NCBI GenBank assembly: GCA_019245115.1
Contig: JAFARZ010000287.1
Coordinates: 19,853-83,852, forward strand
DNA length: 64,000 nt
From: Streptosporangiaceae bacterium
GTDB taxonomy: Bacteria > Actinomycetota > Actinomycetes > Streptosporangiales > Streptosporangiaceae
Direction of reading: 5' to 3'
The notes under the pieces were generated by a model. It was not told where the DNA came from and searched no databases. It saw only the letters and a list, made by a program, of their open reading frames with translations. The translations under genes and the position numbers were made by a program. Of the stretch, positions 3,063-49,611 are shown piece after piece; position 1 is the first letter of the stretch; each line of letters starts with the position of its first letter.

Positions 3063-3875
3063 TTACGCGGCCCTCCGGCGGCGGGCGCTGGCCACGGCCT
3101 GGCGCTCCAGCACGATGTCCGCCAGCTCGGGCGCCGCGCCGAGCGCGCCGGACACGGCGGCCGCTCCCGCAGTCAGCGAGTCGTGGCGGATGCGGTCCGC
3201 GAAAAGGCCCGGAGCCAGCAGGTACGTGGCGACTACCACCCGGCGGACTGCCCAGCGGGATGCCCTGGGGGTTCCGCTTCGCAGCAGCGTCGCCACCGCC
3301 TCGGCGGGGGTTGGGGCGGCGGCGGAGGCGAACGCGGGGAGGACGGTGTGCCAGCCGCCGTCCGCATGCCACTGGGCAGCCAGCCGGGCCACCGTGGCGT
3401 TCGCGTCCGGGTCCGAGGATCCCGCCGCGGCCAGCACGACCGCGGTGCCCGCGCGATCCGCCATCGCCGCGGTCCCGCCTTCTGCTTCGGCGAGGCGGCG
3501 CTCGAGCGCGCGCGGCAGCAGGGGATGCGGCCCGAGCGTGGCGCCGTAGGTCACGTCCAGCGCGGACCGCGCCAGGATCCGCGGGATGTCGGTCTTGCTG
3601 TGGTACGCCGCGGTCAGCAGGAGGGGCAGCACGCAGACCCGCTGGTCGTCGCCGATCGTGCCGAGCACCTGCGGCAGCGAAGGGACGCTATGCCCGAGGT
3701 AAGCGGTCCGCACGTCCAGCCCGGGCCCGGCGTCCGCGGCGTGCGCGCCGGCTCCGGCGCGTGACCGGACCAGCGACATCAGCGCCTCGATGGTCGCGGC
3801 CGCGCGCGGGTCCTCGCTGCCGTGCGCCACCGCGACCAGAACCTCCCCGGCGGGGGACGGCGCCTCCTCAGGCAT
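3063..3875 (-). CDS. Sirohydrochlorin chelatase (CbiX/SirB-like)
   Basis: 270 aa; VLVAVAHGSEDPRAAATIEAL, tandem chelatase-like halves; last gene of the sulfate-reduction operon. Confidence 0.85.
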   Translation of the reverse strand: MPEEAPSPAGEVLVAVAHGSEDPRAAATIEALMSLVRSRAGAGAHAADAGPGLDVRTAYLGHSVPSLPQVLGTIGDDQRVCVLPLLLTAAYHSKTDIPRILARSALDVTYGATLGPHPLLPRALERRLAEAEGGTAAMADRAGTAVVLAAAGSSDPDANATVARLAAQWHADGGWHTVLPAFASAAAPTPAEAVATLLRSGTPRASRWAVRRVVVATYLLAPGLFADRIRHDSLTAGAAAVSGALGAAPELADIVLERQAVASARRRRAA

Positions 3876-4596
3876 GAATGCCGCATTCGGTCTTGCCGGT
3901 CCCGGCCCAGCGCCCGCTGCGCGGGTCCGCGCCCGGCTCGACCCGCAGGGTGCAGGTGGCGCATCCGATGGACGGGTATCCGTCGTAGACCAGCGGGTTC
4001 ACCAGCACGCTGTTCTCAGCGATGAAGTCATCGACCTCCTTGGAGGTCCAGCCGGCGATCGGGTTGACCTTGACCATTTCCCGCCGGTCGTCCCACTCCA
4101 CGACGCGGGACTCCCGCCGCGAATTGGTCTCGTCCCGGCGCACCCCGGTGATCCACGCGTCATAGTTCTTCAGCGCCCGTTCGAGCGGTTCCACCTTACG
4201 CAGGTAGCAGCACAGGTCGGGGTTGCGTCCATACAGCCGGGGCCCGAGTTCGGCGTCCTGTTCGGCTACGGTGCGTGATGGCGTGATGTTCAGCATCCGC
4301 ACCGGGTACACCACGTCGACCGCGTCCCTGGTTCCGATGGTCTCCGCGAAGTGGTAGCCGGTGTCGAGGAACACCACGTCAATGCCGGGCTTGATCGCCG
4401 AGGCCAGGTGGATGATCACGGCGTCGGTCATCGACGAGGTCACGCATATCCGGTCACCGAACGTGTCCGTCGCCCAGCGGATGACCTCTTCGGCTGGCGC
4501 GTCCGCCAGATCGGCCGCTGCCCGCTCGACGAGGGTTCGCATCTGCTCGGCATCCTCCGTGCGCGGTTGGGCACCCAGGTCCAGGGCGACGGTCAC
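3868..4596 (-). CDS. cysH: Phosphoadenylyl/adenylyl-sulfate reductase CysH
   Basis: C-terminal CATCTLRVEPGADPRSGRWAGTGKTECGIHA and internal CCYLRKVEPLERAL. Start proposed at GTG 4596 (VTVALDLGAQ), giving a GTGA overlap with the upstream small ORF. Confidence 0.92.
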   Translation of the reverse strand: MTVALDLGAQPRTEDAEQMRTLVERAAADLADAPAEEVIRWATDTFGDRICVTSSMTDAVIIHLASAIKPGIDVVFLDTGYHFAETIGTRDAVDVVYPVRMLNITPSRTVAEQDAELGPRLYGRNPDLCCYLRKVEPLERALKNYDAWITGVRRDETNSRRESRVVEWDDRREMVKVNPIAGWTSKEVDDFIAENSVLVNPLVYDGYPSIGCATCTLRVEPGADPRSGRWAGTGKTECGIHA

Positions 4597-4739
4597 AGCG
4601 TTACTCCTATTCCGGCAAAGCGTAGCTGGAAACTCCTGGTACAGCTGCGGCAATGCCATTCGCCATCCTTGGAGCCGGCCGGCTCAAGGTCTTCCTCGCC
4701 GCAGTAAGGGCAGTAGAACGGCACAGCCCGCGAGCTCAT
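4593..4739 (-). CDS. Small zinc-ribbon protein, 48 aa
   Basis: Not in ORF track (too short): MSSRAVPFYCPYCGEEDLEPAGSKDGEWHCRSCTRSFQLRFAGIGVTL. Two CxxC pairs; ATGA overlap with sulfite reductase stop and GTGA overlap with cysH start. Confidence 0.8.
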   Translation of the reverse strand: MSSRAVPFYCPYCGEEDLEPAGSKDGEWHCRSCTRSFQLRFAGIGVTL

Positions 4740-6415
4740 TTCAGGTCTCCTTCGTTGGCGCGGGCGGCCCAGGCCGCGAACGTCTCATCGGGCTGGCGGC
4801 CCGCGGCGAACCGGCGCAGCACCCGCTCCAGGTAGTCCGGCAGCTCGGCCGCGGTGGTCTTCAGGCCACGGACCTTCCGCCCGAACCCGGAGCCGCTCGC
4901 GTCCCCGCCGCTGAGCGTGCCGCCCAGGTGGATCTGGAAGCCTTCGACCTGCGCGCCGGTGGCCGGATCGGTGACGAGCGACCCCTTGAGCCCGATGTCG
5001 CCGGTCTGGATGCGGGCGCAGGAGTTCGGGCAGCCGTTCACGTTGATCGTCACCGGCGTCTGGAAGTCAGGCAGCCGGCGTTCGAGCTCGGCGATCGCCT
5101 CGGCGGCCCGCTGCTTGGTCTCCACGATGGCCAGCTTGCAGAACTCGATGCCGGTGCAGGCCATGGTGTGCCGCCGGAACACGCTCGGCCGGGCCGGAAG
5201 CCCCGCCGCGTCCAGCTCGGCGACCAGGTCGTCCACATCGGCCTGCCCGACGTCCAGGATGACCATCTTCTGCTCGGTGGTGGTGCTGACCCGGCCGCTG
5301 CCGTACCGCTCCGCGAGCTCCGCGATGGTCTGCAGCGCGTCGGCGTTCAGACGGCCCACCGTGGGCGCGAAGCCGACATAGAACCGCCCGTCGCGCTGCT
5401 GGTGCACGCCCACGTGGTCGCGGACCCCGTCGCGCGGCGGCGGGGGCGGCGGCCCGTCCGGAAGCGCGTACCCGAGGTACTCCTTTTCCAGCACTTCGCG
5501 GAACTTCTCCGCCCCCCAGTCGGCGACCAGGAACTTGATCCGGGCCCGGTGCCGCAGCCGGCGGTACCCGTAGTCACGGAAGAGGGAGGTGACTCCCGCC
5601 CACACCTCCGGAACCTGCCCGGGCCGGACGAAGGCACCGAGCCGCTGGCCGATCATCGGGTTGGTGGACAGCCCCCCGCCGACCCACAGGTCGTAACCTG
5701 GTTCCCCGTCATTCACGACTCCGACGAACGCCACGTCGTTGATCTCGTGGATGGCGCACTGCGCCGAGCAGCCGCTGATGCTGGTCTTGTATTTCCGCGG
5801 CAGGTTGGAGAACGCCGGATCGCCGATGTGCTCCGCGCGGATAACTTCGATCTCCGGCGAGGCGTCGATCACCTCGTCGGCGTCGACCCCCGCCAGCGGG
5901 CAGCCGAGGATCACCCGCGGGGTGTCGCCACAGGCCTCGGTCGTGGACAGGCCGACCGCGTCGAGGGCATCCCAGATGGCCGGGACGTTCTCGATCTCGA
6001 TCCAGTGCAGCTGGATGTTCTGCCGGTCGGTGACATCGGCCGTGCCGCGCGCGTACCGGCGGGAGATGTCGGCGATGGTCCGCACCTGGGCGTTGGAAAG
6101 CTGCCCGCCATCGATGCGGATCCGCATCATGAAATAGCGGTCGTCGAGTTCCTCCGGCTCGAGCACCGCGGTCTTGCCGCCGTCGATGCCCGGCCGGCGC
6201 TGCGTGTACAGCCCGTACCAGCGGAACCGGCCGCGGAGGTCCGCGGGGTCGATGGAATCGAACCCGTATCTGGAGTAGATGTCGATAATGCGCTGACGGA
6301 CGTTCAGGCCGTCGTCGTTCTTCTTACTTTCTTCGTTCTTGTTCAGTGGCTCGTGATATCCGAGCGCCCACTGTCCTTCGCCGCGCTTTCGTCGAGTGGC
6401 AGTTGCGATTGGCAT
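4736..6415 (-). CDS. Ferredoxin-type sulfite/nitrite reductase
   Basis: About 559 aa from MPIATATRRKRGEGQWALGYHEPLNKNEESKKNDDGLNVRQRI; TADVTDRQNIQLHWIEIENVP, GCSAQCAIHEINDVAF, NVNGCPNSCARIQTGDIGLKG. Confidence 0.93.
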   Translation of the reverse strand: MPIATATRRKRGEGQWALGYHEPLNKNEESKKNDDGLNVRQRIIDIYSRYGFDSIDPADLRGRFRWYGLYTQRRPGIDGGKTAVLEPEELDDRYFMMRIRIDGGQLSNAQVRTIADISRRYARGTADVTDRQNIQLHWIEIENVPAIWDALDAVGLSTTEACGDTPRVILGCPLAGVDADEVIDASPEIEVIRAEHIGDPAFSNLPRKYKTSISGCSAQCAIHEINDVAFVGVVNDGEPGYDLWVGGGLSTNPMIGQRLGAFVRPGQVPEVWAGVTSLFRDYGYRRLRHRARIKFLVADWGAEKFREVLEKEYLGYALPDGPPPPPPRDGVRDHVGVHQQRDGRFYVGFAPTVGRLNADALQTIAELAERYGSGRVSTTTEQKMVILDVGQADVDDLVAELDAAGLPARPSVFRRHTMACTGIEFCKLAIVETKQRAAEAIAELERRLPDFQTPVTINVNGCPNSCARIQTGDIGLKGSLVTDPATGAQVEGFQIHLGGTLSGGDASGSGFGRKVRGLKTTAAELPDYLERVLRRFAAGRQPDETFAAWAARANEGDLK

Positions 6416-6527
6416 CCGCGGATCCTCCGGGGTTCGGCGGGTGCACGTACGCAAGGGCGGTCAGGCCCGGCTAGGGCGGCACACAAAAAAGCGCCGGCCT
6501 CGCACGCGCACCCGAAAGGGCAGACGG

Positions 6528-6973: not shown

Positions 6974-7909
6974 ATGCTGCCGTTCGCTGATCGCCGTACC
7001 GCTGGCCGACTGCTCGCCGAAGAGCTTAAAGGCCTTTCCAACGAACGTACGGTGGTGCTTGGCCTGCCACGTGGCGGCGTAGCCGTGGCCCGTGAGGTCA
7101 CGAGGGTGCTCGATGTCCCGCTGGACGTCATCGTCACCAGGAAGATCGGCTACCCGGTCCAGCCCGAACTGGGGGTGGGCGCCATCGCGGAGGGCGGCGC
7201 GGGCCCGGTGTTCGACGACGGGCTGCTCAAGCGGCTCGGCTTGACGCCCGAGGACCTCGCCGACGTGGTGGCGGCCGAGGAAGCCGAACTGGCCAGGCGG
7301 GTCCGGGTGTACCGCGGCGACCGCCCGCCGCCCGATGTCACCGGGCGCGGCGTGATCGTGGTGGACGATGGCCTGGCGACCGGGGTGACCGCCCGCGCCG
7401 CCCTTCGTTCGCTGCGTGCCGCCGGAGCGGGATCTGTTGTTCTCGCTGTTCCGGTGGCGCCGCCATCCGCGGCGCAGGCCATGCGGGACGAGGCGGATCA
7501 GGTCGTGTTCCTGGTCACGCCGCCGCTGTTCTCCTCCGTGGGGGAGTGGTACACCTCGTTCGGCCAGCTCAGCGACGCCGACGTCCTGGCTCTGCTTACG
7601 CCCGAACGGTTATTTCCTCCGCGCCGCTCGCATTCCCTCCGCGCCAAGGCTTCGCTGCGCTCAGCCGGCTTGGGGCCGCGGCGGGAATTGCCGCCCCTGC
7701 GGGACGGCAACCGCCGCGGCAGCTCGCTCACGCTCGCTGTGTTCCCTCCGCGCCAACGCCTCGCTCGCTGTGCTCGGCCGCCGCGGCGCTCGCTTACGCT
7801 CGCTCAGGCGGCGTTCGCGCGGCGCATGCGCCGACGGCGCTCGGCTGAGCGCTCCTCCTCGTTCAGGCCGCCCCACACGCCGTACTTCTCAGGCCGGGAG
7901 ATGGCGTAG
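6974..7909 (+). CDS. Phosphoribosyltransferase family protein with repeat-derived C-terminal extension
   Basis: MLPFADRRTAGRLLAEELKGLSNERTVVLGLPRGGVAVAREV ... VIVVDDGLATGVTARAALRSLRAAGA (PRPP loop); Arg/Ser-rich tail after LTPERLF. Confidence 0.85.
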   Translation: MLPFADRRTAGRLLAEELKGLSNERTVVLGLPRGGVAVAREVTRVLDVPLDVIVTRKIGYPVQPELGVGAIAEGGAGPVFDDGLLKRLGLTPEDLADVVAAEEAELARRVRVYRGDRPPPDVTGRGVIVVDDGLATGVTARAALRSLRAAGAGSVVLAVPVAPPSAAQAMRDEADQVVFLVTPPLFSSVGEWYTSFGQLSDADVLALLTPERLFPPRRSHSLRAKASLRSAGLGPRRELPPLRDGNRRGSSLTLAVFPPRQRLARCARPPRRSLTLAQAAFARRMRRRRSAERSSSFRPPHTPYFSGREMA

Positions 7910-8103
7910 TTCAGGCACTCCAGCCGCACCGGGCAGGACTGGCAGATCGCCTTGGCCTTCCGCTCCCTGATCTCCCGCTCCGGCTGACGCTCCCCGTCGG
8001 GGCCGAAGAACAGCAGCAGGTCCTCTCCACGGCACGCCGCAGCATCTTGCCACCCCCAGTGAGGGCGGGGAAGCACAGCCGACTGCCGACGTACCTGGGA
8101 CAT
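7804..8103 (-). CDS. WhiB family transcriptional regulator
   Basis: 99 aa; AACRGEDLLLFF, AICQSCPVRLECLNYAI, GVWGGLNEEERSAERRRR. Confidence 0.95.
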   Translation of the reverse strand: MSQVRRQSAVLPRPHWGWQDAAACRGEDLLLFFGPDGERQPEREIRERKAKAICQSCPVRLECLNYAISRPEKYGVWGGLNEEERSAERRRRMRRANAA

Positions 8104-8517
8104 AGATCAATCACCTCAACCAAGCTGGTCAATTCGTGCGTTACAGTAGCTATATAGGACGGAGTTCAGACAGGCGGGGCTAGCTTGACCGTGTCCGGAA
8201 AGCTCCATTGCAAGATGTAACGCGTGTAGATCGCGTTGTGTTCCCGCTCAGGATCGTGTTCCCGCACGTGGCCATCGCGACCGCGGAGGAGAGCGGTCAC
8301 TGTACCAGACGGCTGGCGCCAGCGTTTCGGTTCACCCGTCCTGTTCACCGTAGCGCCGGCCGCTGCATTGCCCGCGGACTATGATGCCACCAGGTGCCAG
8401 CGTCGCGCAGGCGGGGTGGCGAATTCGCCGCGCTATTTCTTACAGCCGTGTCATCTTGGCGAAATCCATAGGGCAAAGCTCGTGACGAACTGGACAAAGC
8501 CCAGAGAGCACGCCACC

Positions 8518-10626
8518 ATGAACAGCATGTCAGCTTCGGACGCGGCTCCTCTGCCCCGGCTCGGCGAAGTGTTCTTCGACGTCCGCGGCAGCTCGAGAAG
8601 TATGCGCCTGAGCTGGTATTCCGATACCGGCATCGCGGTGTTCAGCATCTGGCAGGGCGGTACCTGCACCGGTACGTTCCGGCTTCCCATAGAGGAGCTG
8701 CCGCGCCTGATCGGCGCCCTCCAGCGTGGTCCGGCCGATGGGCCGGACCTCCGCGGCCAGGGTGACTTCCGTGGCGCCCAGGGCGGTTTCCGCGGGGCCG
8801 CCGATCCGCGCGCCGTGCCGGGCACCGGTGACGTGTACGCGCTGGGAGCCGGCGGCACGTCCCGGCAGATGTCCGGGGCGCCGACCGATCCGCGGCTGCG
8901 CGTTCTGCCAGGTTACGGAAACCCCGGAACCGGACCTTATGAGGGCGACTTCACCGGACCGGTGACGGGTGACTTCCGCGCACTGCGTCCCGATGAGCCC
9001 GCTGGCATGGTTCCCGCTCCTACCTCCGCCCCGGCGAGGCCGGCGCGGGCCGCCCAGCTGGCGCTGCCCGCCCCCACCCAGGTCAGCCCGGCTGGCTACG
9101 GGGATTATTACGCGGCCCAGGGCGACTACAGCGGCCAGGGTGATTACGGGACCCAGGGCGGCTACCCGGCGCAAGGAGACTACGGCGCCCAGGCGGGTTA
9201 TCAGGGCCCCGGTTACCAGGGGCAGGGTGATTACGGCGCCCAGGCCGGTTACGCCGATCAGTACCAGGGCCAGGCGCAGTACCCCGGTCGCTTCGATTAC
9301 CCGGCCCAGGACCAGTACGGCGCGCCGAATGAGTATCCGGGCCAGTTCGACTATCCCGAACCGGCTCAGGGCGAGTATGGCGCCCAGGCCGGTTACCAGG
9401 AGCAGAGCCAGTACACCGGGCTCGGCGGGTACGCCCAGGGTTCCTACGCCAGCCAGGGTTCTTACGCGGAGGCCGGCGAGTACCAGAACCCGGGCGCGTA
9501 CGCGAGCCAGGACCAGTACAACGGCCAGGCCGGCTACAACGGCCAGGCCGGCTACAACGGCCAGGCCGGGTATAACGGCCAGGCCGGGTATAGCGGCCAG
9601 GCTGGCTACAACGGTCAGGCCGGGTATAACGGTCAGGCCGGCTACAACGGCCAGGCCAGTTATGAGGAGCAGGCCGGCTTCAACGGCCAGGATCGGTACC
9701 CGGGCCAGGGTGACTATCAGGCCCAGGCCGATTACCAGGGCCGGCCGGAATATCCAGGCCAGACCGACTACCCGGCGCAGGCCGGTTACCCCAGCCCGGA
9801 CCAGTACGCGGGTCAGGCCCAGTACCCCAGTCAAGGCGAGTACCCCAGTCAGGGCGAGTACGCGGGTCAGGCAGAGTACGCTGGCCAGGCTCAGTATCCG
9901 GGCCAGTACCAGGAGCAGCCGGAATATCCGCCCCGCGGGCAGGGCCAGTACGCGGACCAGGCTGGATACCCCGCCCAGGGCGAGTACCCGCGGCAGGCAG
10001 AATACGGCAGGTCAGGCGAATACCAGACGCAGCCCGACCACCGTGAACAAGGCCAGTACGAGCAGGGTCAGTACGAACAAGGGCAGTACGAGCAGGGCCA
10101 GTACGAGCAGGGCCAGTACGAGCAGCAGCAGGCCTACTCCGGCTATGGCTATGACCAGCAGGGGTATGGCACGCAGGGCTATCCCGAGGACCGGTACGCC
10201 AACCGCGCGTACCCTGACCGTCCGGACCCAGCCCCCCGGACCTCGCGGGACCGGGAAGCCCCCGCCGCCGAGCAGAACCGCGGCCCGTCGACGGGACCGG
10301 TGCCCTATCAGCAGCAGTCCGGTTACACCCAAGGGTACGAAGGCCAGGGGTACCAGGGCTACGACCGCGATGGCTACCAGGCCCAGCCCCCGGCCCAGGC
10401 GTACGACGACCGGGGATATCCGGGCGCGGACCCGGCCTACCCCAACCAGGGTTACGAAGGCCAGGGCTATGATGGTCAGGGCTATAACGGTCAGGGGACC
10501 ACGGCGCGCTGGGACTCGGAGGCGACCGCGCTCCAGCCAGTGACGTCGTTTCCCTACGGCGGATCGCCACCCGAGAATCGCGATCAGGATCGGGAACAGA
10601 GGCGGGGACGCCGGCGTTATCAATGA
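8518..10626 (+). CDS. Tyr/Gln/Gly-rich low-complexity protein with short folded N-terminal domain
   Basis: In-frame ATG at 8518 (MNSMSASDAAPLPRLGEVFFDVRGSSRSMRLSWYSDTGIAVFSIWQGGTCTGTFRLPIEELPRLIGAL), then about 550 residues of YxxQGxY-type repeats. Confidence 0.8.
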   Translation: MNSMSASDAAPLPRLGEVFFDVRGSSRSMRLSWYSDTGIAVFSIWQGGTCTGTFRLPIEELPRLIGALQRGPADGPDLRGQGDFRGAQGGFRGAADPRAVPGTGDVYALGAGGTSRQMSGAPTDPRLRVLPGYGNPGTGPYEGDFTGPVTGDFRALRPDEPAGMVPAPTSAPARPARAAQLALPAPTQVSPAGYGDYYAAQGDYSGQGDYGTQGGYPAQGDYGAQAGYQGPGYQGQGDYGAQAGYADQYQGQAQYPGRFDYPAQDQYGAPNEYPGQFDYPEPAQGEYGAQAGYQEQSQYTGLGGYAQGSYASQGSYAEAGEYQNPGAYASQDQYNGQAGYNGQAGYNGQAGYNGQAGYSGQAGYNGQAGYNGQAGYNGQASYEEQAGFNGQDRYPGQGDYQAQADYQGRPEYPGQTDYPAQAGYPSPDQYAGQAQYPSQGEYPSQGEYAGQAEYAGQAQYPGQYQEQPEYPPRGQGQYADQAGYPAQGEYPRQAEYGRSGEYQTQPDHREQGQYEQGQYEQGQYEQGQYEQGQYEQQQAYSGYGYDQQGYGTQGYPEDRYANRAYPDRPDPAPRTSRDREAPAAEQNRGPSTGPVPYQQQSGYTQGYEGQGYQGYDRDGYQAQPPAQAYDDRGYPGADPAYPNQGYEGQGYDGQGYNGQGTTARWDSEATALQPVTSFPYGGSPPENRDQDREQRRGRRRYQ
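9520..9663 (+). repeat. Eight 18-bp tandem repeats encoding [NS]GQA[GS]Y
   Basis: AACGGCCAGGCCGGCTAC-type units read directly, in frame with the surrounding gene. Confidence 0.95.
10045..10119 (+). repeat. Five 15-bp tandem repeats encoding EQGQY
   Basis: GAGCAGGGCCAGTAC-type units read directly. Confidence 0.95.
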
Positions 10627-11359: not shown

Positions 11360-12148
11360 TCAGGAGGGGCCGGGTGGGTGGGCGCCTTGCTTTTCCGGGC
11401 CGCCGGGGTTGACCGCCTTGCCGTCGTTGGTCGCGGCCGGGGGCGGGGGAGCGTCGTCTTCGGCGGGCGGCACCGGACCTACCACGGCGTTCAGCACCTG
11501 GGAGTTGGGCACCGCCATGACGCTGCCTCCGGTATCGAGGCGGACGTAAGTGATGCCGATATCGGTCACGATGCCGTCCAGCTGGCCGCCGAGCGCGCCG
11601 GCCCGCAGCCTGATCTTGTCGCCGACCCGGAACGGCCTGGCGAACAGCAGCACCAGCCCGGCGAACACGTTCGACAGCGCCTGCTGCGCCGCGATGCCAA
11701 CGAACACGCTGGTCAATGCTCCGCCGAGCACCAGCTGGCCGATCGGCACGCCGAACAGCTGCAGCGTCACCACGAGGGTGGTGAACGCGCCGACGATCAG
11801 CAGCAGATAGCGGACGATCGCCGCGTGCGATGTTCCCGCCCGCGGCTCGAGCAGATGCCTCGTCTTGCCGGCCAGCCCGTAGGTCGCCATGGAGCCGAAC
11901 GCGGCGAAGGCCACCGAGGCGCCGATCCAGATGAGGAATGTGCCCAGGTCGGTCAGGTGGAACAGGTTCGCCTTGGGGTCGCGGTGAGCCTGCCGGCCCT
12001 GGCCCGCGATGATCCCGGCCGCGATGGCGAGCACCAGCGCGATGATCGACTTCCATGGGCGGGTCTTCCGGCGCACCGTCTGTACCTTCGCGGTGAGGTC
12101 GATCTGCTCGAACGACTGCACTCGCCGTTTCCTCCCTCCGTTGGCCAC
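11360..12148 (-). CDS. MscS-family mechanosensitive ion channel
   Basis: 262 aa; VFVGIAAQQALSNVFAGLVLLFARPFRVGDKIRLRAGALGGQLDGIVTDIGITYVRLDTGGSVMAVPNSQVLN. Confidence 0.9.
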   Translation of the reverse strand: MANGGRKRRVQSFEQIDLTAKVQTVRRKTRPWKSIIALVLAIAAGIIAGQGRQAHRDPKANLFHLTDLGTFLIWIGASVAFAAFGSMATYGLAGKTRHLLEPRAGTSHAAIVRYLLLIVGAFTTLVVTLQLFGVPIGQLVLGGALTSVFVGIAAQQALSNVFAGLVLLFARPFRVGDKIRLRAGALGGQLDGIVTDIGITYVRLDTGGSVMAVPNSQVLNAVVGPVPPAEDDAPPPPAATNDGKAVNPGGPEKQGAHPPGPS

Positions 12149-12249
12149 TTGGACAACGGTATCGGCTGGACGGCGAGTGACTGGTTATGGGTGCGAATCT
12201 GCCCGGTACCCCGTGGAGGCACCGGGCAGAATGCGTGGACGCGGGAGCG

Positions 12250-12885
12250 CTAGACGATGAAAGGCCTTCCGACCGGCAGCCTGATCCGGCCGCCGATGCC
12301 GTTGGCCACGCCGGCGGCCGACGTGTACCAGGCGACGACCGCGGTGATCAGCCCGAGGTAGCCGGCGAACTGGATGAGCCCGGTGGTGGGCGCCGCCCCG
12401 GCTGAGAAGAAGCCGATGGCCAGGAAGAGCAGCGTCAGTTCCAGGGTGAAGAAGACCCCGAACACGGCCGCGTTCACCTGAGTACTCATGATCAGCATGT
12501 AGGTGTTGAAGACGAGGAAGGCGAGATTGATCCAGGCCACGTCGTGATTGAACTGTGCGGCCGTGTCGTGAACGCCGGCGAGCTCGATCCACAGGCCCGC
12601 GCCGATCCAGAAGCCGCCGTAGCTGGAGAACGCGGTCGAGCCGAACACGTTCCGGTTGCGGAATTCCCACATGCCCGCCAGCAGCTGACACAACCCGCCG
12701 TAGGCGAAGGCGTAGCCCAGGAAGGTGAGCCCGCCAGCATGGGTCATCCAGTTGGCGTTCTTGGCCGAGAAGAGGAAGGTGGTGAGGGCGAACGCCGCCA
12801 GCCCGAGCGGGGCTGGGTCGGCGATCCCCGAGGTTGGAACAGCGGCTGCTCTTGGCTGTACTGCTTGGTCTTCACCGACGCTCAT
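12250..12885 (-). CDS. Acetate uptake transporter (GPR1/FUN34/YaaH/SatP family)
   Basis: 211 aa; ADPAPLGLAAFALTTFLFSAKNA, GGLCQLLAGMWEFRNRNVFGSTAFSSYGGFWIGAG. Confidence 0.92.
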   Translation of the reverse strand: MSVGEDQAVQPRAAAVPTSGIADPAPLGLAAFALTTFLFSAKNANWMTHAGGLTFLGYAFAYGGLCQLLAGMWEFRNRNVFGSTAFSSYGGFWIGAGLWIELAGVHDTAAQFNHDVAWINLAFLVFNTYMLIMSTQVNAAVFGVFFTLELTLLFLAIGFFSAGAAPTTGLIQFAGYLGLITAVVAWYTSAAGVANGIGGRIRLPVGRPFIV

Positions 12886-45729: not shown

Positions 45730-48700
45730 TCAGGGCTGCGCGGTGTCATAGTGGATGCCTTCCTGTGGGGCGTCGCACCGGTAGACGCTGTTGCCTAGCT
45801 CGCCCGGAGCGGTCAGCAGGGACAGGGCGAACGGGTTGCCGTCGCGGCGCGAGATGAACACCGGAGCGTTGTCGATGTAACAGCCGTTCCACGGGCTGTT
45901 CTGGCTGATCGGGCTCTTCGCGCCGTCCCATGGTGGCGCGGAGAACGTCTTCCAGTCACCGGTGCTGATCGGGCCGGTGGCCAGGTTCCCGCTCGCGTCG
46001 CGGAGGTTGCCGTCGACATACAGGTAGAGGTCGGGCATGTAGGAGTTGTCAGCGGTGGTCTGCACCCCGGACGGATCGGCGTTGCCGTCGGGCTCCACCA
46101 ATGTGGTGCCGGTGCACAGCTCGAGATGAGTCTCCGCCCAGATGGTGGGGGCGAAGGTGAGCATGGAGCCACCCAGGTCGAACGGGGCCTGCGGCGCGGA
46201 GGTGAAGGCGGCCCACTGGTCCAGTGGGTTCTTGTCGATCGGCTTGAAGAACTCCGTGACGATGGTTTTGACAGTGTCCCGCACAACAGCGGGTACCAGG
46301 CCTTGCTGATACAGCGAGTCGACCGCGTTGGACCATCCCTGTACCTGGCTTCCGATGCCGGAGTCGTTGAGTATCGGCACGTACCCGTCGGCGCCCCCGG
46401 TGATCGCGGCCAGTGACAGGCAGGTCCGGGAACTGTCCAGCGCCGGCGGGTCGATCCACGGCATGTAGCTGCGGCCCGGGGCCTGGCCGGTCACGCTCAG
46501 GTTGACCGTAGTGGTCACATCGTTGTAGCTGCCGAGGTTGGCACCGGAATAGGTCAGGTCCGGGACGGGGATGCCGTAGTCGGTGGCGATCGCGTTCATC
46601 AGCGGCAGGATGAACGGTGCGAGCGCGGTGGTGCCGATCCGGTTGTAGCCGGTGACGTCGATCGAGCCGGGGTCGATGGTGCCGTCCGGGCGGACCAGGT
46701 AGTCGGCGTCGAGATGGGTCAGCGTCTTGTAGTGGGTCGGATCGTCCAGCCAGCCCGAGGTGAGGGGGTTGGGCAGGGCCGGGTTGGCGAAGCCGATCCA
46801 CTGCGCGGCCGGTTCGGACAGCGTCCGCGCCCAGGCGGCGAAGGCAGCCGAGACCGTCGGAGGCAGACAGGAGGTAGTGAGCACACCCGCGGAACAGGCA
46901 GGAAGCTGCGCGGCGCCGAGCGTCTCTTGACTTGCCCACTGGTTGAGGACCTGGCCGCTGGCCAGCTTCGCGCTGATGCAGCACTCCAGGCCGCTGTCCA
47001 GGTTCTGGTTCACGGCGAACGTGGTGACGGTGTCGACGGTGTGGTGAACGAGCGTGCCGGAGACGGGGACGAACGCCGCCGCGTTGAACGCGATATCGGT
47101 GTCGTCGTTGCCGTTGGCGTCCGCGGCGACGCTGGACAGCGTGAGTGTGGCGCCTGGGTACAGGGTGAAGTCGCCGAGCCCCACCCAGACGTCGGACGCA
47201 GCGAACTGGTCGATGGTCCGCTGGACGCTCGGGTGGCCGTTGCCCGGGCTGATCGTGTACGTGGCCTGGGCGGCCGCCGCCCCGGTGTCCGGCACGAAGA
47301 CCTTTACGTTATAGACGCCTCCGGAAGTCAGCCCGGACGGGGTCCAGGTTCCGGTGTCTGCGGTAAGCTCGCCCGCCTGCCGGGTATGCGTGAACCAGAA
47401 GTGGCCGCCGAAGCCGGCGCCGAGCTGGTGCCAGTCCACCGCGCCGACCGGCTCTCCGGCGCCGTCGGTGCCATATGCGATGGTGAAGGTACCGGAGTTG
47501 TGCCAGTTGGTGTTTCCGCAGCCCTGCTGGTTAGCATCGCTGGCCTCGTCGTCGACGATGATCGCATTGGCGGGCAATGTGGAGTTGCACACCGGCGGGT
47601 GCGGGTCGGCGGGTGGCGCCGGTTCGCTCGCCGTCGTGGCCACCTGGAACGAGGTCGGGGTGCAGTCCGCCGAGGTGCAGCTACTGACATAGGTTACCGG
47701 GGCGTGCCACCAGCATTCAGAGTTGCTCAGCTCGCAGAATCCGTTTGCCGAGTCGGCGGGATCGCAGTTGTCAACGCTCAGGCTGCAGAATGCGCTTTCC
47801 GCGGGGAGCTTCGGGTATGCGACAGCGGGCGCATAGTCTGGGGTATCGCCGCCCAGCGGCACTCTCATCCAGCCGAACACCCTCTCCTGGTAGGGCCAGT
47901 CCGCGGGGTGGCTGGCGTCGGCGTATGTGTCCTGCAGGAACGGTGGGCGGTTTGGCGGGTAGACGGGGTTGATCGGGTTGTTCAGCCAGCCCAGACCCCA
48001 CGGCCCGGAGCCGGTGCCGGGGTGCAGCCCGGTGTTGTAGGCCCAGATCGTGAAGTACCAGTTCTCCAGCTCCTCGGGGTTGCCGTCGTTTATCTTGAGC
48101 CCGGCCGTGGTGACCTGATTCCAGAGATGCGCTAGGTAGTAGGCGGTCGCCGCGGCGTTTTCCGCGTAGTCCATGGCGACCTTGTCCTGTAGCGGCTGCG
48201 GCACGCTGGCGCCGGTGAACGGGTCGGTCGCGCCCGCCGTCATGATCGAGGTGATCTGGCCCATGCCATAGCCGCAGTCGGCCTGACTGTAGTTAATGGT
48301 GCCGCTGGAGTTGTAGCCGTAATAGTCGGCTACCAGCGGATCGCCCGCGATGCCGGGCAGCGCGTGCCAGGACGCCTGCCACCAGTTGGACTCCTGGGCC
48401 ATCACCGCCTCGACTACCTCACGGGGCACGGGCGTGGCAGAGCCGAACGGCGCTGGCAGCGGGAAATCTGATGACGGCGCTGATGCCGTGAGCCCCCACC
48501 TGGAGTCGGGCCGGTTCGCGGTCAGCATTCCCCGCGCGGCCTGCTGGGCGGCCCAGTCCACCTGGGCGGCATCTGGCTGCGGTACCTGTAGCGCCGTGCT
48601 CAGCCGCGGCACCGCGCATTTCGGCGTCTGAGCGGTGGCGGCCGCCATCCGCCCGCCCACATAGGCCGGCGACGAGCGGGTGACCAGCGGACCGGGAAAC

Positions 48701-49611
48701 GGGACCGTACTGGCCAGGACCCGGCCGGGAGCGCCGCGGCCGGCGAAAAGCTGTGCTCCGGTCAGCGGTCCGGAGCCGAGGCGCTGTGCCGCGCCCGCGG
48801 CGCTCACCCGCCACAGTCCAGCCGTTCGCGAGTTCTCCTTGACCAGCGCCTCGACAGCGCCGTCGGCGGCAGGCCGCAGGTCGAACGGCGCTCCCGGGAG
48901 GGTGGCCAGCAGCCGCTGCGCCGGCCGGCTGGTACTGCCGCTGACCAGGCTGTCGCCCCGGACCGCCACGATTCCCCCCGGCACCGGTACCGCCGAGGTG
49001 AGTTCCCCGGCGACCGGTGCCGCGGCGCGCACGGTGGCGGTCCGCGTGTCGACCGTCAGCAGTTGGGTCGCGCCCTCGTCGGCGCGGGTATAGCGAGTCA
49101 GCACCGCCTGTCCGGACGCGCCGCATCCAGGGTTGAAGTAAGCCAGCGAAACGCCGGCGGTAAGCGGACGGACCCGGCCGTCGTGCGCGTCGACCAGGTA
49201 GGCGTAGCCGCCCGTGTCCATCCCGGCTGCGCTGTTGGACGCGTGCCAGGGTGCTACCACGGCGATCACCGACCGGCCGTCGCCGGTCAGGCACTGGCGG
49301 CCGGTCCAGCGCTCATCCGAGTAGCCACCGGGCTGGAGCGTCGCCAGGGGAATCCAGGACGAGCCGCCGCCGGCGCTTGCCGCGTAGATGTGGTAGCCGC
49401 CGGTGTCGCCGGTGCCCGTCACCACCTCGTCGCCCGCTGCTATATGGGCAGGTGACGCGGCCGGACCGGTCCCATCGGCCGCCGTGTGGTGTGATCTGGC
49501 GGCCAGCGGGGGCTGAGCGGCCGCCAGTCCCGCTCCGGCCGCCATGATCAGCCCGCTGGTCACTGCCGCAAGGACGCCCGCGATGCGCCGCCGCGCGGAG
49601 GCTGGTCTCAT
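45730..49611 (-). CDS. Large secreted multidomain protein: beta-propeller-like N terminus, lytic-transglycosylase-like domain, golvesin-like domain
   Basis: 1293 aa, signal peptide (ITSGLIMAAGAGLAAAQP); VMAQESNWWQASWHALPGIAG...ADCGYGMGQITSIM; YNVKVFVPDTGAAAAQATYTISPGNGHPSVQRTIDQFAASDVWVGLGDFTLYPGATLTLSS. Confidence 0.72.
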   Translation of the reverse strand: MRPASARRRIAGVLAAVTSGLIMAAGAGLAAAQPPLAARSHHTAADGTGPAASPAHIAAGDEVVTGTGDTGGYHIYAASAGGGSSWIPLATLQPGGYSDERWTGRQCLTGDGRSVIAVVAPWHASNSAAGMDTGGYAYLVDAHDGRVRPLTAGVSLAYFNPGCGASGQAVLTRYTRADEGATQLLTVDTRTATVRAAAPVAGELTSAVPVPGGIVAVRGDSLVSGSTSRPAQRLLATLPGAPFDLRPAADGAVEALVKENSRTAGLWRVSAAGAAQRLGSGPLTGAQLFAGRGAPGRVLASTVPFPGPLVTRSSPAYVGGRMAAATAQTPKCAVPRLSTALQVPQPDAAQVDWAAQQAARGMLTANRPDSRWGLTASAPSSDFPLPAPFGSATPVPREVVEAVMAQESNWWQASWHALPGIAGDPLVADYYGYNSSGTINYSQADCGYGMGQITSIMTAGATDPFTGASVPQPLQDKVAMDYAENAAATAYYLAHLWNQVTTAGLKINDGNPEELENWYFTIWAYNTGLHPGTGSGPWGLGWLNNPINPVYPPNRPPFLQDTYADASHPADWPYQERVFGWMRVPLGGDTPDYAPAVAYPKLPAESAFCSLSVDNCDPADSANGFCELSNSECWWHAPVTYVSSCTSADCTPTSFQVATTASEPAPPADPHPPVCNSTLPANAIIVDDEASDANQQGCGNTNWHNSGTFTIAYGTDGAGEPVGAVDWHQLGAGFGGHFWFTHTRQAGELTADTGTWTPSGLTSGGVYNVKVFVPDTGAAAAQATYTISPGNGHPSVQRTIDQFAASDVWVGLGDFTLYPGATLTLSSVAADANGNDDTDIAFNAAAFVPVSGTLVHHTVDTVTTFAVNQNLDSGLECCISAKLASGQVLNQWASQETLGAAQLPACSAGVLTTSCLPPTVSAAFAAWARTLSEPAAQWIGFANPALPNPLTSGWLDDPTHYKTLTHLDADYLVRPDGTIDPGSIDVTGYNRIGTTALAPFILPLMNAIATDYGIPVPDLTYSGANLGSYNDVTTTVNLSVTGQAPGRSYMPWIDPPALDSSRTCLSLAAITGGADGYVPILNDSGIGSQVQGWSNAVDSLYQQGLVPAVVRDTVKTIVTEFFKPIDKNPLDQWAAFTSAPQAPFDLGGSMLTFAPTIWAETHLELCTGTTLVEPDGNADPSGVQTTADNSYMPDLYLYVDGNLRDASGNLATGPISTGDWKTFSAPPWDGAKSPISQNSPWNGCYIDNAPVFISRRDGNPFALSLLTAPGELGNSVYRCDAPQEGIHYDTAQP

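Follow-up and report, generated by a model that had tools for sequence, protein, structure and literature searches.

A single bacterial PUR repeat forms an intertwined dimer and binds DNA (PMC2954813), and Pur-alpha localises to ribonucleoprotein (RNP) granules (PMC11042805). Bacterial SSB consists of a folded head that binds single-stranded DNA (ssDNA), a long low-complexity linker and a conserved C-terminal peptide, and its condensation has been reported (PMC11947617). In FET/hnRNP proteins, such as FUS and EWS, tyrosine stickers at short, regular spacing in a G/Q/S-type spacer are joined to a nucleic-acid-binding module. Here, we describe a gene at 8518–10626 (plus strand) of a 64,000-nt stretch of Streptosporangiaceae DNA (contig JAFARZ010000287.1; the whole stretch is hereinafter designated the window). 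The gene product combines a conserved head, predicted to fold like a PUR repeat, with a fast-changing tyrosine tail, a layout best known from proteins whose liquid-like droplets include nucleic acids. To the original prediction, which had described a tyrosine-periodic protein from the DNA letters, our analysis adds a conserved unnamed domain family, a predicted PUR-like fold, short tail motifs and a probable corrected start with a leaderless-type promoter.

Architecture of the protein and comparison with described systems

The open reading frame (ORF) begins with an ATG at 8518, closes with a stop codon that ends at 10626 and encodes 702 residues. It is real, as originally proposed, and the N-terminal sequence quoted for it is exact; GC content at third codon positions (GC3) is 0.78 for the head-coding part and 0.80 for the tail-coding part. 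The protein contains a folded N-terminal head of ~62 residues (residues 11–72; 8548–8733, plus strand) and a low-complexity tail of 628 residues (residues 75–702; 8740–10623, plus strand).

The resemblance to PUR-repeat proteins (Pur-alpha and the Borrelia single-repeat PUR protein, PDB 3N8B) lies in a single repeat of ~65–75 residues. Unlike them, the head has no detectable sequence homology to PUR and no Pfam match, and we know of no PUR-repeat protein with a tyrosine tail of several hundred residues. The likeness to SSB is one of layout. The SSB head is an OB fold, while the head of the window protein is predicted to be β-β-β-β-α, and no OB-fold protein was recognised among its listed top Foldseek matches. 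The SSB linker is not tyrosine-periodic, and the SSB tip differs in sequence from that of the window protein. Like FUS, the tail has aromatic residues at regular intervals within low-complexity spacer sequence that is poor in aliphatic residues. Unlike in FET/hnRNP proteins, the spacer is of G/Q/A/P/D type and net acidic, and the protein has no RRM, RGG, zinc finger or homology to them.

A conserved head with a predicted PUR-like fold

Of 151 genomes from the same taxonomic family, 102 carry the gene; it is single-copy in all but one of these, and each chain has a single head. Named relatives come from Streptosporangiaceae and other actinobacterial metagenome-assembled genomes, and from Trebonia kvetii. 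Other Actinomycetia have stand-alone head proteins of ~75–100 residues, and a small number of diverged forms are found elsewhere in the phylum. Mean column identity of the head is 77% among near relatives and 54% across clades, R30, V41, W45 and C50 are invariant, and non-synonymous divergence (dN) is 0.06–0.21 versus synonymous divergence (dS) of 0.9–1.7. The head has no match above chance in Pfam, NCBIfam, PHROGs or PADLOC, neither the head sequence nor its profile retrieved anything from the PDB in sequence searches, and no description of the family was found in the literature. The head family is a conserved, unnamed and undescribed domain of soil actinobacteria that no curated family covers.

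The original prediction had placed a small folded domain before the tyrosine tail. AlphaFold2 predicts a β-β-β-β-α fold for the head. The predicted local distance difference test (pLDDT) score is ~80–91 in the core of the window copy, and the trimmed core of one relative (L058) reaches 88.6 overall. Pur-alpha repeats top the Foldseek list of the core model against the PDB (TMq 0.64–0.77) and are the best structural matches of the predicted head. They include Drosophila Pur-alpha repeat III (5fgo_D; probability 1.00, TMq 0.65) and human PURA (8cht_B; TMq 0.77, 1.9 Å over 60 columns), and the RNA-binding proteins MRP1/MRP2 are also among the matches. The window copy's own model matches the same Pur-alpha group, further down the list. 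Against viral models, the matches are mostly uncharacterised phage proteins (best E-value 7e-3). By strand alternation, R30, S43, W45 and R55 would lie on the face of the sheet away from the helix. Such a face would suit the binding of ssDNA or RNA, and would also suit a dimer or protein interface. Because the predicted fold is Pur-alpha-like, the earlier suggestion of a nucleic-acid-associated factor gains support.

Tyrosine periodicity and repeats in the tail

The tail contains 82 tyrosines in 628 residues (13.1%). After residue 190, 61 of the 78 tyrosine-to-tyrosine spacings are 5 or 6 residues (6 in 45, 5 in 16), in agreement with the period first described. The coefficient of variation of the spacing is 0.65, compared with 0.91 ± 0.10 in shuffled tails; none of 1000 shuffles is as low (minimum 0.67). 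Residues 190–640 contain 73 tyrosines and 86 glutamines, with three Phe, one Leu, one Val and no Ile, Met, Cys, Trp or Lys. The likeness to sticker-and-spacer domains thus holds, given a spacing more regular than in any shuffle and an aliphatic-poor spacer. No transmembrane segment or signal peptide is seen (maximum 19-residue Kyte-Doolittle value 0.71), consistent with the cytosolic location originally suggested.

The DNA of the tail includes two tandem arrays, identified by TRF and codon analysis. The 18-bp array at 9506–9691 (plus strand) encodes eight NGQAGY-type units, as predicted, although only six are exact and the other two read SGQAGY and NGQASY. The 15-bp array at 10051–10125 (plus strand) encodes EQGQY five times exactly. 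The NGQAGY copies differ nearly only at synonymous sites, with a ratio of non-synonymous to synonymous differences (pN/pS) of 0.08, and the EQGQY copies have synonymous differences only (pN 0, pS 0.81). Purifying selection acts on the repeat copies at the protein level. The protein ends in an Arg-rich tip, RDQDREQRRGRRRYQ (10579–10623, plus strand), and several relatives also end Arg-rich.

Tyrosine density of this kind is rare among the ORFs of related DNA, in line with the rarity originally noted. Over 617 ORFs (~0.6 Mb), mean tyrosine content is 2.06%; 16 ORFs have at least 8 tyrosines in 80 residues, and 12 of the 16 are members of the head-plus-tail family. A search of the genome with the tail matched only the tail itself, with no paralogous tail at that sensitivity. 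Elsewhere in the window, a large ORF of 1231 residues at 45730–49425 (minus strand), outside the head-plus-tail family, is moderately tyrosine-rich (8 Tyr in 80 residues).

Tails and short motifs across the family

Tail length ranges from about 20 to 1128 residues across relatives, and the spacer repeats differ, for example TDYLADPPGQRAGQ in L015 and NGYAAQNGQ in L045. The tails are acidic, A/P/D/E/R spacers are common, and in most long tails tyrosine is several-fold above the 2.06% background. Glutamine varies from <1% to about 20% and falls to about 1–5% in many tails while tyrosine persists. Specifically, the conserved tail feature is tyrosine; Gln and Asn, which together make up 18% of the window copy, are not conserved. 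The term "prion-like", in its Q/N sense, is thus a loose label that does not hold as a family trait.

Within these tails, short motifs recur far more often than expected. P.TG[EQD][YF] is present in 32 of 59 tails (1.9 expected), [FYP]P.TG[DEQ].?[YF] in 23 of 59 (0.1 expected) and TGER in 18 (0.3 expected). Clade d tails carry FP.TGEY, while clade e tails carry YPGTGQY, STGER and a C-terminal RDW; in one clade, 18 of 20 tails have an end of the R-[DGE]-W type. The window copy has PVTGDF (8959–8976, plus strand) and a degenerate copy of the same P.TG[EQD][YF] motif, PGTGDVY (8818–8838, plus strand). From their sequences, the motifs suggest partner binding or phosphorylation.

Probable start codon and promoter

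Met1 is missing in many relatives, and the fourth residue stays Met in nearly every one. In upstream DNA of 78 non-redundant relatives aligned on the Met4 ATG, two boxes are conserved: T[G/A]GACA at −36 to −31, at equal distance in nearly all family members, and xAxxAT at −13 to −8. Apart from both boxes, the upstream DNA is little conserved in two of three clades. In the window, the −35-like box is TGGACA (8491–8496, plus strand) and the −10-like box is CACCAT (8514–8519, plus strand), which takes in the A and T of the 8518 ATG. The −10-like box is kept even in relatives where the Met1 ATG has become ATA or CAT.

In Streptomyces lividans, ~20% of genes are leaderless, and promoters carry TGAC and TANNNT boxes (PMC6742748). 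From the spacing of the boxes, we infer with good reason a promoter of the housekeeping type, with transcription expected to start at the Met4 ATG. Most copies have C in place of T as the first base of the −10-like box, so this assignment falls short of proof. Since Met4 is kept where Met1 is lost and the spacing is of the leaderless type, the coding sequence probably starts at Met4 (8527–10626, plus strand; 699 residues) rather than at Met1 (8518; 702 residues). The 8518 ATG would then probably belong to the −10 box, and annotated starts in the head-plus-tail family may lie 9 nt upstream of the true start.

Proposed mechanism and alternative explanations

Our working model, the best supported of the readings compared although we hold it tentatively and would not yet call it probable, is that the protein is cytosolic, with a head for single-stranded nucleic acid and a tyrosine tail for multivalent, condensate-type association. 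The PUR/PC4-like head would probably pair into a dimer and use its sheet to bind single-stranded RNA or DNA, or the head may instead target a partner. Regularly spaced tyrosines in the disordered tail would serve as stickers separated by G/Q/A/P/D spacer sequence and draw several molecules together into a condensate-type assembly, and the short conserved motifs would recruit partners. Overall, such a protein might work somewhat like bacterial SSB or eukaryotic FET/hnRNP proteins.

Several observations weigh against this model. The Foldseek E-values for the Pur-alpha chains are weak (0.1–0.9), and a 60-residue fold of four strands and a helix readily finds matches. A hhalign comparison of the head with an alignment of four Pur-alpha repeats, which lack strand 1, is at chance (score 11.1, E-value 0.16, within the range of shuffled columns at 9.0 ± 2.2, maximum 19.4). 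A Pfam scan of 40 family members gave no PUR-type match, and searches of the genome for PurA (PF04845) and DUF3276 (PF11680) were empty. Because the E-values are weak and the sequence profiles show no homology, we describe the predicted head as folding like a PUR repeat and claim no membership in the PUR proteins. Net charge is only +1 for the head and −37 for the acidic tail. In vitro, no phase separation of human PURA was seen (PMC11042805). The tail is short or absent in some lineages, and condensation therefore cannot be a function universal to the family.

The head could instead be a protein–protein docking or oligomerisation module, with the tail a flexible hub of short linear motifs (such as Ser/Thr-kinase sites or peptides read by FHA domains) that forms no condensates. 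Actinobacterial Ser/Thr kinases prefer Thr with an aromatic residue at +3, a preference that the tail motifs would fit. Such a hub would also account for a near-neutral head without a sequence link to PUR and for motifs strongly conserved within otherwise drifting tails; it leaves unexplained the density of tyrosine over hundreds of residues and its period of 5–6, and we regard it as rather unlikely. A tail kept for its composition, mainly as a spacer or a solubilising bristle that protects against crowding or desiccation, with specificity in the head alone, is improbable. The very variable tail lengths and spacer compositions and the existence of stand-alone heads are consistent with it, yet an inert spacer needs neither tyrosine enrichment in ~70% GC DNA nor conserved short motifs.

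The tandem arrays at 9506–9691 and 10051–10125 are real and could suggest that replication slippage at GC-rich repeats of 15 and 18 bp expanded the low-complexity sequence neutrally. The pN/pS of 0.08 between repeat copies and the tyrosine-rich tails of relatives with other repeat units make neutral expansion very improbable. Because the tandem copies differ almost solely at synonymous sites, chance or slippage as the whole explanation of the tail is excluded. A secreted or wall-bound protein of collagen-like or adhesive type has in its favour only weak matches to Pfam Collagen (1.1e-5; 25.5 bits, cut-off 27.2) and SclB (24.4 bits, cut-off 325). These matches are compositional and arise from the Gly periodicity of the window protein, which, unlike collagen-like proteins, has no G-x-y triplets. 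No signal peptide, transmembrane segment, export or sorting signal or wall anchor was found, and the folded head lies at the very N-terminus; secretion or wall attachment is scarcely credible, and we reject it.

Gene neighbourhood

The gene stands alone. Its divergent neighbour is a WhiB-family regulator gene (7804–8103, minus strand; Pfam Whib, 2.7e-24), a pairing kept in near relatives but not in all clades. In a second clade, the divergent neighbour encodes a DinG-like helicase, and for many stand-alone homologues it encodes an Fpg-type DNA glycosylase. A conserved-operon explanation was rejected, as no neighbour is shared by all clades, and no division genes are linked to the gene in the neighbourhoods compared. 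The DNA-maintenance neighbours of two lineages (DinG-like helicase and Fpg) lean slightly towards a nucleic-acid role. Counts of this kind are inflated by synteny within lineages, and the DNA-repair flavour of these neighbours is therefore suggestive only.

At 12 of 20 stand-alone-head loci (L118–L137), the head gene lies next to an AAA_16 ATPase gene and is transcribed divergently from an Fpg-type glycosylase gene. A conserved 54-residue protein (MKPRTGDGPLEVTKEGRGIVLRMPLEGGGRLVVEMTPDEVRALGDAI...), with the look of a strand-hairpin-helix, is encoded near stand-alone heads at L128–L130. Elsewhere in the window, a PAPS reductase-type gene lies beside a sulfite/nitrite reductase-type gene (3868–6454, minus strand), an assimilatory sulfur pair. 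At 11360–12885 (minus strand), the gene of an MscS-type channel beta-domain protein adjoins that of a GPR1/FUN34/YaaH transporter, a pair kept in several relatives.

Implications for the family

It is possible, though doubtful, that these proteins are undescribed actinobacterial nucleic-acid-binding condensate scaffolds, with a single PUR-like head and fast-evolving tyrosine sticker tails in one large taxonomic family, that they are an independent counterpart of FET/hnRNP proteins, and that the stand-alone heads are their tail-less form. If so, the family would offer a natural series of orthologues that share the same head and carry tails of about 20 to >1000 residues, together with tail-less forms. 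With such a series, the contribution of a tyrosine-rich low-complexity tail to a bacterial nucleic-acid-binding protein could be tested directly, as could the question of whether sticker–spacer grammar arose independently in bacteria. The head itself is one more conserved, unnamed domain in a phylum that includes many natural-product producers.
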